From the NCBI GenBank assembly GCA_903885965.1, contig CAISKQ010000066.1, forward strand, positions 1 through 54,421: a stretch of 54,421 nt of DNA. The letters are read 5' to 3'. A program made the position numbers and the translations under genes. The stretch's first letter is position 1. Every line of letters begins with the position of its first letter. The stretch is from an uncultured bacterium. Lineage in GTDB: Bacteria > Patescibacteriota > Minisyncoccia > Moranbacterales > GWC2-37-73. Of this stretch, positions 2,957 through 43,829 are shown one piece after another. The notes below the pieces were generated by a model. The model did no database searches and was not told the origin of the DNA. It saw nothing but the letters and a program-made list of their open reading frames with translations.

Positions 2957-3029
2957 GAGACATCCCCTTTTTTGCTTTATTAAAAGAACTGAAACTCGTT
3001 GAAAATTCGATTTAAAGAATCAAATCCTC

Positions 3030-3072
3030 AAAAAGTTGCCAGAGAGAAGGAAATTAATCTTCTCTCCGGCGT
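3030..3072 (-). terminator. Hairpin with T-tract between exonuclease and 397-aa gene
   Basis: On the minus strand GCCGGAGAGAAG pairs with CTTCTCTCTGGC (one mismatch) across a nine-base loop, followed by AACTTTTT. It sits inside the presumed operon, so it may attenuate transcription or protect an mRNA end rather than end transcription fully. Confidence 0.6.
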
Positions 3073-8897: not shown

Positions 8898-9221
8898 CTT
8901 TTTAACTAAGTTTTAGCTTTTAGCCCCAGTGGCATTTGTCACGGGGTAAACTTCGTTAGCTTTTAGGAGATTTAAAAATAACAAGAAATCAATATCCAAA
9001 GATTTTTTTCCTCCTTTAGAAAAGGAGGGCTAGGGAGGATTTGTAAGGCTAATACTGAATTAACTAAATTAGTGCTACTTCACGCAAAGGGACTAAGTCC
9101 CCAATAGGGGACTTAGTCCCTTACAAGGTGGAATGAATTAAGTTAAGTCGGTATAACTTATCCAAAGAAAGTTTTTCAAATCTCCACTATCCTCTTTTCA
9201 AAAAACAATTAATGCTTCCAT
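8898..9221. other. Gene-free repeat-rich stretch after gpmI
   Basis: No gene is visible. The stretch holds an AGCTTTTAG-type phrase (8908-8966) shared with 13514-13680, an imperfect CCTCCTTT...AAAGGAGG hairpin (9010-9030), and a perfect 16-bp hairpin at 9087-9122. Confidence 0.5.
9087..9122. repeat. Perfect 16-bp hairpin without T-tract
   Basis: AAGGGACTAAGTCCCC and its exact complement enclose AATA. No T-run follows. It is similar in design to the hairpin at 5301-5337; the two have unrelated sequences. Confidence 0.7.
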
Positions 9222-9257
9222 AAAATCACCGCAAGGTGATTTTATTATTTTCATTTT
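9222..9257 (+). terminator. Terminator downstream of gpmI
   Basis: AAAATCACC-GCAA-GGTGATTTT is followed by ATTATTTTC. It is T-rich on both sides and could act in both directions. Confidence 0.65.
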
Positions 9258-9261
9258 AGTT

Positions 9262-9305
9262 ATACTCGACTATATTTAAATCGCATTTTAAACATAGTCG
9301 AGTAT
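9262..9305. repeat. 12-bp inverted repeat
   Basis: ATACTCGACTAT (9262-9273) and ATAGTCGAGTAT (9294-9305) are perfect inverted complements around a 20-base AT-rich centre that itself contains TTTAAA twice. The role is unknown; it lies between the ends of gpmI and accessory locus 2. Confidence 0.5.
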
Positions 9306-9334
9306 GCTTAAAATTTAGACACTTTCTATTAGTT

Positions 9335-9385: not shown

Positions 9386-9423
9386 GAAAAAAGCGCAAGA
9401 GGAAAAGATTTTCCGCTTGCGCT
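9386..9423 (-). terminator. Terminator of accessory locus 2
   Basis: On the minus strand AGCGCAAGCGGAAAA pairs with TTTTCCTCTTGCGCT (one mismatch), followed by TTTTTC. Confidence 0.85.
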
Positions 9424-9430
9424 AGGGTGT

Positions 9431-9553
9431 CTACTGATGTTGCAAAACATATATCACCACAGAAACGAGAAGGATAGCTTCTGCAATCAGAAGACCCCTC
9501 ATAACTTTTGGATATTTGTAAGCAAAAATGATTTTCTTAAAGAACTCTTTCAT
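9431..9553 (-). CDS. Small single-pass membrane protein, 40 aa
   Basis: The start at ATG 9553 follows AAAGGAGAAAAAT, a strong SD, and is preferred to the upstream ATG of the longer frame. The product has a basic N-terminus (KEFFKKIIFAYKYPK) and one hydrophobic segment (about residues 20-36), so the C-terminus probably lies outside the membrane. It is the last gene of accessory locus 2 and is followed by a strong terminator. I do not recognise a family; toxin-like or regulatory membrane peptides are possible by size alone. Confidence 0.65.
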   Translation of the reverse strand: MKEFFKKIIFAYKYPKVMRGLLIAEAILLVSVVIYVLQHQ

Positions 9554-9672
9554 ATTTTTCTCCTTTGTATTTTGATTGTTGGTTTTTATCTTATCCATTT
9601 CTTGAAAACACAAACTTTTATGTCTTCAAGGATGGGGCTGATTTAAAAAGATTTCTAAATCGGCCAGTTAAA

Positions 9673-10125
9673 TCAAAAGGGGCTTTTTTTCATTTTGCCA
9701 TATGGATATGGCAATTCCCCCTTATAATAGGAAGCAAGACACGGGGTGCTCAGATCCTCGTTGACATAGTCAGGATCACCAGCAAATACCTTATATAGTC
9801 CAGTAAGGGGCCACATACATGGCACAAGGATAATTGCCACTTCCCCCTCTTTACCTTTGCAAAGTGCAAGGCTGTCAAAAAATCTCTCCACTGCCAAGTC
9901 TTGAGCTGCATCTTCAATTGAAAGTGAAAGCTTATCAATAAATGCTTCAACTGACTCAAGAGCTTCATCCGCGATGATGAAAAGTTTTTTCTTGCCTCGC
10001 GACCTCTCCAGATTGCCAAATTTTATTTTAGGCATCTCATCAAGGACAAGATAATAGCAATTCCGTTTGTTTTTGCCCTTACCCTTATTTATTTCCAATA
10101 TAGCGTTTTCAGCTAGCAATTTCAT
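9673..10125 (-). CDS. Hypothetical protein, 150 aa, accessory locus 2
   Basis: ATG 10125 follows TCAAAGGAGATAAAA, a strong SD. The protein has a basic N-terminal part (NKGKGKNKRNCYYLVLDEMP), an acidic helical middle (about residues 50-90), and a C-terminal part with PCMWPLTGLYKVFAGDPDYV. There is no signal peptide or clear membrane segment, and I recognise no family. It follows copy A of the structured element. The FAGDPDYV region could be a binding loop, but this is only a guess. Confidence 0.7.
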   Translation of the reverse strand: MKLLAENAILEINKGKGKNKRNCYYLVLDEMPKIKFGNLERSRGKKKLFIIADEALESVEAFIDKLSLSIEDAAQDLAVERFFDSLALCKGKEGEVAIILVPCMWPLTGLYKVFAGDPDYVNEDLSTPCLASYYKGELPYPYGKMKKSPF

Positions 10126-10154
10126 TTTTATCTCCTTTGATTATTTTTATTGTA

Positions 10155-10360
10155 ATGAACTTTTTTCATCCCTTAGGAATACATTTTTCAAAAATATATT
10201 CCTAAGGATTGAGCCGATAGATGAGAACCATTCTATCTATCGGCAGTTGGTGAAAGTTTTTTCGAGACTTTCAGACTCGTTTCGATCCGCTTCGGGTTGG
10301 ATCTTCTTCATTTCCATTTTTCAATGGTTCTGTTGCCAACGGGTGAAGTGGTCCCGTCCG
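10155..10360. ncRNA. Structured duplicated element, copy A
   Basis: It matches copy B (11045-11275) over about 200 bases and folds into a series of hairpins: TTAGGAATA/TATTCCTAA; GCCGATAGAT/ATCTATCGGC (10213-10242); GAAAGTTT/AGACTTTC; GATCC/GGATC; CCATT/AATGG; ACGGG/CCCGT. Several stems differ in sequence between the copies yet stay paired. It occupies the 5' region of the 9673-10125 gene on the minus strand. G-T pairs in some stems fit a plus-strand RNA better, so the active strand is open. Confidence 0.6.
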
Positions 10361-10371
10361 GAATTTATCCA

Positions 10372-11022
10372 TCAGTGATATGCATTGAGAATGCATTCGC
10401 CTGGAAGAAGTTGCATACCGGCATATTCAAGCACGGTTTTTGCAACTTCCTGAGGAGAAATAAACTTGCCTGCTTTCGCAAGAAAATCTGCCTTCTCTTC
10501 GGGATATCCATTCCAAATCCGTGTTTCCACTGGACCTAAAAGGAAATCACACACTGAAAGTCTGCCTTCCCGTCCCTCCTTGGAATTAATACTCTTTCCA
10601 AGATTATGCAAGAACGCGAACGCCCCTGCGTTGAACGCACAACCAGAGAATCCATGCTTGGCACTTTGCCCAAGCATATTAATGATTCTTCCGCCCCTAG
10701 CCATCACTGTCTTTGCAGATGTAATGGCGCAGACATGTGCATCCAGAAAAGGACGGATTGCAAGATATCCCTCGAAATCAAGATTATCAAATGGTATAAA
10801 CGGAATTGCAGCTGTTACCATTAAATCGATATCTTTCATTCCAGCAAGCAAGTTTTTCACCTGCTCCATATCTCGCAAATCGCAGAAAATTCCTTTGCCA
10901 GGATTCTCCTGACGAGTGGTGTTGCAATATGTCCACACAACCTCATAGCTAGCCAGGGCTAAAGCTATCACGATTGCGCTTCCAACATCACTGCCGCCAC
11001 CAAGGACTAATGCTTTTTTCAT
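10372..11022 (-). CDS. SDR-fold protein lacking the catalytic Tyr/Lys
   Basis: ATG 11022 (MKKALVLGGGS) is chosen because GGAGAATATT lies just upstream; the frame's first ATG at 11034 overlaps that SD. The 216-aa protein has the short-chain dehydrogenase dinucleotide motif GGGSDVG (residues 8-14) and a beta strand GRIINMLGQSA ending in Ser120. The usual YxxxK position reads FNAGA (Phe130, Ala134), so both key residues are absent. The Asn-Ala-Gly-type strand 4 motif is VTAAIP. It probably binds NAD(P) or a related ligand but is unlikely to be a normal oxidoreductase (inference). Confidence 0.75.
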   Translation of the reverse strand: MKKALVLGGGSDVGSAIVIALALASYEVVWTYCNTTRQENPGKGIFCDLRDMEQVKNLLAGMKDIDLMVTAAIPFIPFDNLDFEGYLAIRPFLDAHVCAITSAKTVMARGGRIINMLGQSAKHGFSGCAFNAGAFAFLHNLGKSINSKEGREGRLSVCDFLLGPVETRIWNGYPEEKADFLAKAGKFISPQEVAKTVLEYAGMQLLPGECILNAYH

Positions 11023-11044
11023 AATATTCTCCAATAATTTTTTA

Positions 11045-11275
11045 AATGAACTTTTTCAATCTTTAGAAATACATTTGAAAAAAATATATTCCTGAGGATT
11101 GAGCCGATAGAAAACCATTCTATCGGCAGTTGGTGAAAGTTTTTTCGAGACTTTCAGACTCGTTTCGACCTGTTCGGTGCAGGTCTCCTTCGTTTCTCCT
11201 ATTCCCTAAACTTTTTGAAAGAACAAATGGGATGATAGGATTTTCTGTTGCCAACGGGTGAAGTATTCCCGTCCG
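11045..11275. ncRNA. Structured duplicated element, copy B
   Basis: It shares the order of hairpins with copy A. Stem 2 is GCCGATAG/CTATCGGC (11103-11127), stem 4 is GACCTG/CAGGTC in place of GATCC/GGATC, and the next stem is CCTATTCCC/GGGAT-ATAGG in place of CCATT/AATGG. GTTGCCAACGGGTGAAGT is identical in both. It lies upstream of the SDR gene on the minus strand. Confidence 0.6.
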
Positions 11276-11283
11276 AGTCTTGC

Positions 11284-12354
11284 TCATCGCCCCGTCGGCG
11301 AGTCGTACCGGTCCGCCAAATCGTATGCCACTATGAGATAGCTTTGCCCTGCAGTTTCCTCTGCCAGAGCGTTTGCCACCGCATAGCCTGCGCGAGTTGT
11401 TCGACCATACCCTTGGAGCTCATCTGGAATATCCCTATCCCAGAAAATAGCGTCCGCAGGAACAGATCGTCCCGTCAATGCTTCATATGCCCCGATTGTT
11501 TTCCACCACCAGACCAACTTCTCATCTGCGAGAAGTGGCACTGAGGATTCCAACGCCGGTGCAATAAAGTGAACGGGAAACGATGTGCCAGGCAAACCAT
11601 GACGCGGAAATTGCTTCCGCATTTCTGGTGTTACCCCATACATCGCCTCGGCGCGACCAGGATAGAGCTTTTCGAAAGTATAGGAACTCTCGAAACACTC
11701 CAGACCAACCATCCTCGTTTTCTGGGACAACTCTTTGAGTCGTCTCCCATATCCGAGTTGAGTTGTTCCGTTTCCTGATACAGCTACGAATGTGTCAGGA
11801 CCGACACCACTCAGCTCTGCGAAAACCTCCTCTGCAACATTCCCGCAAGCTGCCATCACAATCGGATTAATCATAGGCAGTCCATTTTCCATGACCATAC
11901 TATGATTAAAGAAAAATGCGTCGCGATTTCTCGCCCTGAAACGGAGATTAAAACTCGCCGCTCCATCCACATAAGTCTTTGCGTCCGTTAAGTGAAGCTG
12001 CTCTTTTGGAATAAATTGCAGAATTGCATCTTCGCGAGCCTTCTCCCCGCCTGCAGGCATAGCAACCTCACAATGATATCCTAACTGAGATCCGATGGCT
12101 GCCATCGCAATCCCAGCTGAGCCACTTGTGAAATCGTACACCCGCTGCCCTGGGACAATCACCCCCGCCTCCTCAAAATGGCGGTAAAGTGCGAAATAGA
12201 CTCGCACATAGTGATTAAAAGCCCAAGGATTCCGACATTCCTCTTTCACATATAGCGTGTTGCCATTTGGAAGAAGATTGTCGAAACGTACAAGCGGGGT
12301 GTTGCCAATCTGATTGGCAAGCTGAGCGTATACTGCGATTCTGTCGTTTGTCAT
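11284..12354 (-). CDS. PLP-dependent fold-type II protein with Lys replaced at the Schiff-base position
   Basis: The 356-aa protein resembles cysteine synthase/threonine synthase-type (tryptophan synthase beta family) enzymes: GNTPLVRFDNL near residue 17, KEECRNP at 37-43, an SGSAG loop (77-81), and a GNGTT phosphate loop (195-199). The lysine that normally follows N-P-x-G-S-x (consensus NPTGSFKDR) is replaced: the segment reads NPWAFNHYVR, with His48 at the aligned place. It may be inactive, use another residue, or be a ligand-binding protein. It is the first gene of locus 2, with SD CGGAGAATATC before ATG 12354; that SD can be masked by its leader. Confidence 0.75.
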   Translation of the reverse strand: MTNDRIAVYAQLANQIGNTPLVRFDNLLPNGNTLYVKEECRNPWAFNHYVRVYFALYRHFEEAGVIVPGQRVYDFTSGSAGIAMAAIGSQLGYHCEVAMPAGGEKAREDAILQFIPKEQLHLTDAKTYVDGAASFNLRFRARNRDAFFFNHSMVMENGLPMINPIVMAACGNVAEEVFAELSGVGPDTFVAVSGNGTTQLGYGRRLKELSQKTRMVGLECFESSYTFEKLYPGRAEAMYGVTPEMRKQFPRHGLPGTSFPVHFIAPALESSVPLLADEKLVWWWKTIGAYEALTGRSVPADAIFWDRDIPDELQGYGRTTRAGYAVANALAEETAGQSYLIVAYDLADRYDSPTGR

Positions 12355-12459: not shown

Positions 12460-12488
12460 ATAATACTACGTTTTTGACAAATCGTCAA
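12460..12488 (-). promoter_or_regulatory. Promoter of accessory locus 2
   Basis: On the minus strand TTGACG (12483-12488) and TATTAT (12460-12465) are 17 bases apart. It overlaps the plus-strand promoter of the divergent TrmB gene. Confidence 0.5.
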
Positions 12489-12752: not shown

Positions 12753-13511
12753 ATGATTCAAGAAAAACTCCAACAACTAGGCCTGTCTGAAAACGAAATT
12801 CTCGTTTATCTTTGCGTGCTGGAAAACGCCAACATTGCCCCGTCGCGCATCGCCAAAAAGACCGGACTAAGCCGGCCAACAGTCTATGTGATTGGTAAGA
12901 AACTCGCTGAAATGGAGCTTATTTTGGAGGAAACTGGTCAAACTGGGCTGCATTTTCTGGCACTTTCGCCTGAGATGATCCTGCGAGACGCTGAAAAAAA
13001 AGAACGGGAGGCTAAAGAGAAACTTGCGATTGCCAAGTCGATCCTGCCTGAACTAGCCCTTCTACCGAAATCCCAAGGTTATTCAGTGCCAAAAGTAAGA
13101 TTTATTGAAGAAGCGCAACTCAATGACTATTTGTATAGCAAAACTCCTGATTGGAATCGCAGCGGACTTGAGCGTGACAAAATTTGGTGGGGAGTCCAAG
13201 ACAGTTCATTGATCAAGCACTACGGAGATTGGCTGGGATGGTATTGGAAACAAACTAACGGAACCATTGTTTCGAAAATGGTCACCAATGAAAAAGAAGA
13301 AGGCCATTCTTTTGAAGGTCAGCAGCTGCCAGCGCGACAAATGAAATATTGGCCAAGTGGCAAAAGCATCCGCGTGACCCAAGCGGTGTTTGGAGATTAT
13401 ATCCTCATCGTAAACACCCACACCAAACCGCATTCCCTTTTTGAAATTCACGACGCCGTCACCGCCGAAGGCCTGCGCCAAGTTTTCAAAGGGATTTGGG
13501 AAACACTATGA
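12753..13511 (+). CDS. TrmB-family transcriptional regulator (locus 2)
   Basis: The 252-aa protein begins with a winged helix (residues about 3-75; NIAPSRIAKKTGLSRPTVYV), then a Lys/Glu/Arg helical linker (about 85-105), then the effector-binding part ending FKGIWETL, like the locus 1 paralogue. DNA binding is at the N-terminus; the ligand is unknown. It is divergent from the PLP-fold gene. There is no SD before ATG 12753, and the mRNA leader carries a TGTCAT repeat. Confidence 0.8.
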   Translation: MIQEKLQQLGLSENEILVYLCVLENANIAPSRIAKKTGLSRPTVYVIGKKLAEMELILEETGQTGLHFLALSPEMILRDAEKKEREAKEKLAIAKSILPELALLPKSQGYSVPKVRFIEEAQLNDYLYSKTPDWNRSGLERDKIWWGVQDSSLIKHYGDWLGWYWKQTNGTIVSKMVTNEKEEGHSFEGQQLPARQMKYWPSGKSIRVTQAVFGDYILIVNTHTKPHSLFEIHDAVTAEGLRQVFKGIWETL

Positions 13512-43740: not shown

Positions 43741-43829
43741 GGAGGGTTGGCAGAGCCCGGTCGAATGCGCCGCACTCGAAATGCGGTAGGGGAGAAATCT
43801 CCTCGCAGGTTCAAATCCTGTGCCCTCCG
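43741..43829 (+). tRNA. tRNA-Ser (anticodon CGA)
   Basis: GGAGGGT and GCCCTCC form the acceptor stem (one G-T pair), followed by the discriminator G. The anticodon arm is CCGCA-CTCGAAA-TGCGG, giving CGA for UCG codons. A long variable arm, TAGGGGAGAAATCTCCTC, is typical of type II tRNAs, and GGTTCAAATCC is the T loop. CCA is not encoded. Confidence 0.95.

Follow-up and report, generated by a model that had tools for sequence, protein, structure and literature searches.

Two classes of RNA element absent from Rfam at the junctions of exchangeable gene units in Patescibacteria

Why does a folded element lie twice in one operon, each time in the gap between two genes? This question is raised by the 54,421-nt stretch of DNA analysed here (the window), which belongs to an uncultured bacterium of the order Moranbacterales, phylum Patescibacteriota, with a genome of 1.27 Mb in 67 contigs. 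All genes around 9.4-12.4 kb of the window are on the minus strand (Table 1), and the two copies, A and B, occupy the gaps between the first three genes of the operon. A sequence-only reading had described them as a single duplicated element, possibly antisense to the operon instead of its leader. We found two classes of RNA element, m1 and m2, which are absent from Rfam and lie at the junctions of exchangeable gene units.

The operon has one strong promoter on its own strand (12488-12460), whose -35 hexamer is overlapped by the inverted repeat TTTGACGATTTGTCAAA. No terminator-like site was found at m1 or m2 on the minus strand, and an intrinsic terminator or attenuator was rejected. Since m2 has no terminator-like U-tract on this strand and this promoter is the only strong one, a single transcript probably spans the elements. 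The true start codon of the SDR-like gene is probably the ATG at 11022. A TrmB-like regulator gene is divergent from the operon, and genes for such regulators likewise adjoin cassette operons in several relatives. Just past the operon end there are long, almost perfect inverted repeats (9087-9122 and 9253-9314).

Table 1. Positions of the features discussed, counted in the window unless another locus is named.
Feature	Position	Strand	Basis
Operon promoter TTGACG-17-TATTAT	12460..12488	-	promoter scan and sequence
PLP-dependent enzyme (PALP; cysteine-synthase-like), first cistron	11284..12354	-	Pfam PF00291, E 1.5e-25; NCBIfam score under cut-off
m1 copy B	11165..11276	-	model R1, 71.2 bits; covariation
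m2 copy B	11055..11127	-	model R2, 73.8 bits; covariation
Short-chain dehydrogenase (SDR)-like protein, second cistron	10372..11034	-	PF00106, E 2.4e-5, just under cut-off
m1 copy A	10282..10361	-	model R1, 98.8 bits; covariation
m2 copy A	10165..10244	-	model R2, 63.0 bits; covariation
150-aa protein, third cistron	9673..10125	-	without family match
m2 not accompanied by m1, ahead of the 40-aa membrane-peptide gene (third m2 of the operon)	9594..9664	-	model R2, 66.7 bits
40-aa peptide with hydrophobic stretch, last cistron, family F15	about 9431..9553	-	gene-family comparison
TrmB-like regulator, divergent from the operon	12753..13511	+	PF01978, E 1.7e-10
Double hairpin similar to m2 but diverged, with AGTTCTTT after it, ahead of ORF 1763-2956	2991..3070	-	descriptor search; R2 score not over threshold
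Proteins with GGxHxTxxGKKGYxRK motif	L086 2329-2496 (+); L038 6345-6521 and L102 about 4706, reverse-strand counting

Structure of m1 and m2

The duplication of A and B was confirmed by a direct-repeat search, which aligned the copies in register (10162-10221 with 11052-11111, 87%; 10236-10285 with 11119-11168, 100%; 10328-10360 with 11243-11275, 94%). Six hairpins were recovered in the same order in both copies; 5' to 3' on the minus strand, they run from P1, P2 and P3 of m1 through a GAAAGT/ACTTTC hairpin to H1 and H2 of m2. However, what had been taken for one element is a compound of two separable ones, each of them also found alone: m2 occurs without m1 at many junctions, and m1 without m2 in loci L037 and L086. 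The count of two copies also fell short, as it had overlooked the third m2 of the same operon.

The m1 element has about 80 nt and consists of three stems and a likely pseudoknot between the loop CUUC and a GAAG downstream of P2. In copy A the stems are GACGGG/CCCGUU (P1), CCAUU/AAUGG (P2) and GAUCC/GGAUC (P3). P2 is a variable hairpin and carries a 32-nt insert in copy B. Two paired changes pointed out in the sequence-only reading belong here: GATCC/GGATC against GACCTG/CAGGTC is P3, CCATT/AATGG against the long CCTATTCCC stem is P2, and both stems covary across 16 copies. Over these copies 12 of 23 pairs vary on both sides, with contributions from each of P1, P2 and P3, and 91% of the cells of the alignment pair, against at most 51% with slid partners. 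All four CUUC/GAAG pairs are invariant, and the pseudoknot is thus supported by complementarity and, in a minority of copies only, by flanking pairs: position 18/93 is A-U, G-C or U-A in 7 of 15 rows, and a diverged copy (L037 10880-10975) opposes GCUUCA to UGAAGC, giving six pairs. There are also long invariant single-stranded stretches (ACUUC, GGCAACAGAA and AAA). The diverged copy lies within some 700 bases that contain no substantial ORF (L037 10560-11250, minus strand) and that are possibly a longer structured RNA.

The m2 element, about 70 nt, is formed by two adjacent hairpins, often followed by AGUUC(A/U)UU. In copy A, H1 (GCCGAUAG..CUAUCGGC) and H2 are followed by AGUUCAUU (10154-10161) and by the Shine-Dalgarno sequence of the 150-aa gene; in copy B, AGUUCAUU (11045-11052) precedes that of the SDR gene. 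Across 20 copies, 18 of 25 pairs vary on both sides and 90% of the cells pair, compared with 43% or less with slid partners. For m1 and m2 together, slid versions paired in a reported 32-57% of cells over all slides. Covariance models were built for m1 (R1) and m2 (R2); a broader third model was dropped, as MAFFT misaligned H1 of the diverged m2 copies. The m2-like double hairpin at 2991-3070 belongs to another operon, which adjoins a TrmB/PRTase-like gene.

Compensatory changes thus exceed both shuffled and slid controls, and m1 and m2 are almost certainly conserved RNA structures, judging from the alignments; many homologues uphold the selection on RNA structure proposed earlier. Folding energy agrees: copies A and B each fold better than all 200 dinucleotide shuffles on both strands, with z of -6.1 (A) and -4.9 (B) on the minus strand and of -5.3 and -5.4 on the plus strand. 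Single-copy energy lies far under that of the shuffles, yet does not discriminate between the strands. The wobble pattern does. In the minus-strand reading the paired columns hold 67 G-U cells against 21 A-C cells, and some G-U wobbles persist in 11 of 11 rows or in 19 of 20; read from the plus strand, they would be A-C mismatches. On account of these counts and of the strand of the flanking genes, the elements are very probably read from the operon strand, and the antisense alternative was rejected.

The earlier remark that no known class was recognisable held against Rfam 15. At the gathering cut-off a scan of the whole window returned only a tRNA (43741-43829), and around the elements, at E up to 5, the search gave only two irrelevant eukaryotic families, located elsewhere; a known Rfam class was thereby ruled out. 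Literature searches returned no description of such elements in Patescibacteria. A conserved peptide across m1 was also discarded: although RTG.L.PLATE is an open frame, its variable codons differ at all of their positions, and L086 has lost 11 nt.

Position at gene junctions, gene exchange and distribution

The context of the elements was surveyed on 19 operon strands, where they separate mostly small genes without family match. In 14 of 16 copies m1 begins 1-10 nt past the upstream stop codon (gaps of 1, 1, 2, 2, 3, 4, 4, 7, 7, 7, 7, 10, 10, 10, 36 and 281 nt); copy A starts 10 nt past the stop codon of the SDR gene and copy B 7 nt past that of the PLP-enzyme gene. From the end of m2 to the next start codon the median is about 39 nt, which leaves an A/U-rich, unstructured leader. 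Judging from these fixed distances, m1 goes with the gene that ends before it and m2 with the one that starts after it. The term leader, used in the sequence-only reading, was incomplete, as the elements lie between cistrons and their m1 half is placed where the upstream gene ends. In the sequences read, first genes of cassette operons carry no elements, several last genes encode short hydrophobic peptides, and three m2 copies (L034 16851, L039 7046 and L038 4486) have no intact gene after them. Cassette operons of different families repeatedly contain, or lie close to, genes for tiny basic proteins with the GGxHxTxxGKKGYxRK motif.

Between the elements, gene families recur in varying order. 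The six occurrences of family F0 fall into five different settings; in the genome of the window, F15 comes after F6 in the window and after F1 at another place. Comparing the window with L034, F0 is absent from one and present in the other between the same neighbours, and copy B of m2 in the window appears to combine the two m2 copies found on either side of F0 in L034. Elements also mark the ends of the blocks that the window shares with L035 (window 9594-10363) and with L089 (window 9386-9665, 97.5%) and that L039 (5668-6654) shares with L037, although this is in part to be expected, since a BLAST alignment runs on through any repeat that two loci have in common. Furthermore, the protein of the F12 gene, which is accompanied by an m1, has 82% identity between two families, against about 63% for their RNase Y, and this suggests transfer between lineages.

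Among the genomes searched, only a few lineages of Patescibacteria carry the elements. A DNA search of 142 relatives gave strong homologues in genomes of the same genus and in two of another family (G106 and G114). Of the 131 genomes searched from the order, R1 matched 7, which belong to two genera; across 380 genomes spanning the phylum it found the genome of the window and one weak match (G293, 28 bits), which has several broken pairs and is probably due to chance. With E up to 0.01, R2 matched 12 of these 131; it also matched 4 of 335 genomes drawn from the class and, in a sample of the phylum, only the genome of the window. The copies at L095, L096, L102 and L103, which come from other families of this class, retain the two-hairpin plan and mostly AGTTC(A/T)TT, with very different sequence. 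Viral contigs, phages and plasmids gave no match to m1, two cassette proteins had no relatives in viral contigs and the 150-aa protein was not found in plasmids; a viral or plasmid origin was rejected on these searches.

The genome of the window holds six m2 copies, three in the window and three on contig 2, where L089 (about 33.2 and 39-40 kb) is a second cassette island with m2 on both strands; it carries the same 40-aa peptide gene as the window, in 97.5% identical DNA. Two other observations were made in this genome. On contig 51 (L106) the 16S rRNA gene seems to be interrupted by an intron-like stretch with a possible reading frame. In the upstream regions L107-L146, G+C-rich words such as GAGAGCCGGATGCGGGAA and GCTTGTCCGGTT precede 6-11 genes and are perhaps a dispersed repeat or a piece of a group II intron.

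Possible roles of the elements

The reading that we tentatively favour, which infers function from position and conservation, is that m1 and m2 act in cis on the mRNA and punctuate the operon between its cistrons. A terminating ribosome would cover the start of m1, which could fold once the ribosome clears the stop codon. The m1 pseudoknot might then block 3' to 5' decay into the upstream cistron, or ribosome read-through, while m2 would shield the 5' side of the next cistron and prevent upstream structure from involving its ribosome-binding site. Together the two folds would hold off exonucleases and ribosomes on both sides. If the linker between m1 and m2 were cleaved, stable, independently translated units could result. 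The m2 copies that no intact gene follows count against this reading. The presence of similar sequence at every junction would make gene exchange by homologous recombination possible, and recombination between elements might insert, delete or swap genes without spoiling expression.

Several other mechanisms could produce parts of this picture. The most specific of them, owing to the boxA-like octamer, is processive antitermination, with m2 and AGUUCUUU serving as a boxA-like NusB/S10 site or as a put-like two-hairpin RNA that acts on RNA polymerase. The two adjacent hairpins of m2 suit it, as do the octamer-type sequence GTTC(A/T/C)TT after 18 of 44 m2 copies (0.1 expected) and the AGTTCTTTnAA, close to boxA, that follows diverged copies. 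However, the type seen in the window, AGTTCATT, is not boxA, the octamer is missing from over half of the m2 copies, and a site ahead of every gene would be redundant. The octamer is not enriched in upstream regions of the genome, and the rRNA leaders of this genome, G003 and G027 lack AGTTC(A/T)TT and have other TTCTTT(A/G)A words. A role of boxA as a general leader signal was set aside (AGTTCTTT, 6 observed against 2.9 expected; absent from the three rRNA leaders). We regard antitermination as quite unlikely. The invariant single-stranded stretches of m1, typical of a ligand or protein site, would suit a riboswitch or a regulatory-protein site that sets the translation of each downstream gene within a common regulon. 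We consider this unlikely: the elements are seen at gene junctions, first operon genes are without them, and m1 is tied to the upstream stop codon, not to the next ribosome site.

The swapping of genes at the elements would also be expected of DNA sites for a site-specific recombinase that moves gene cassettes, as the integron integrase, which uses folded single strands, does at attC. But GTTGGCA/CACCAAC does not fit the attC core (R''/R', GTTRRRY ... RYYYAAC), there are several hairpins in place of one long imperfect hairpin, and the tight tie to stop codon and ribosome site, together with the G-U bias, points to RNA; recombinase sites are accordingly very unlikely here. For m1, self-cleavage as a ribozyme, with a cut in the transcript past each stop codon, seems highly improbable. 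Its compact form with a likely pseudoknot, its fixed start past the stop codon and a GGCAACA that recalls HDV are in keeping with one, but it matches no Rfam ribozyme family; the HDV-like type was rejected, as P3 of that fold is missing and the place of the catalytic C (column 93 of alignment A6; J4/2) is U, C or A.

Returning to punctuation between cistrons, a broader and doubtful proposal is that Patescibacteria possess a cassette system: portable genes, each bounded by a stop-codon-anchored pseudoknot and a double hairpin as RNA punctuation of its own, would function in any operon position, and would use the same elements as exchange points that spread largely uncharacterised genes between families. 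As two RNA classes absent from Rfam and tied to stop codons and ribosome sites, m1 and m2 would show by what means cistrons stay independent within the operons of a reduced Patescibacteria genome, and how mostly uncharacterised small genes are added and swapped. Their sequences can also serve to trace such gene cassettes in uncultured bacteria.

Comparison with known systems

The REP/BIME elements of enterobacteria are repeated hairpins that follow stop codons within operons and can block 3' to 5' decay. Like a stability element of that type, m1 and m2 lie between cistrons of one operon. REPs, however, are single hairpins present in large numbers genome-wide, whereas only two cassette loci were found in this genome, with a pseudoknot-type m1 and a separate m2. 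The put RNA of HK022 has two hairpins, and m2 resembles both it and the boxA-type sites of rrn and lambda nut in having hairpins with a AGUUCUUU-like stretch; it differs in being repeated before internal genes, in missing the octamer in most copies and in an octamer that is not common to the rRNA leaders looked at. Integron cassettes are similar in that mostly uncharacterised genes are separated by, and exchanged at, a recurring folded element, but m1 and m2 have no attC core and, with their several hairpins, bear the signature of selection at the RNA level. The plastid intercistronic expression element (IEE) has a place between cistrons too, and is credited with producing from one operon stable mRNAs that can be translated separately (PMC2230500). 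Its likeness to m1 and m2 is one of intercistronic place, by description: the IEE is a plastid sequence, whereas m1 and m2 are conserved multi-stem bacterial RNAs present at many junctions.
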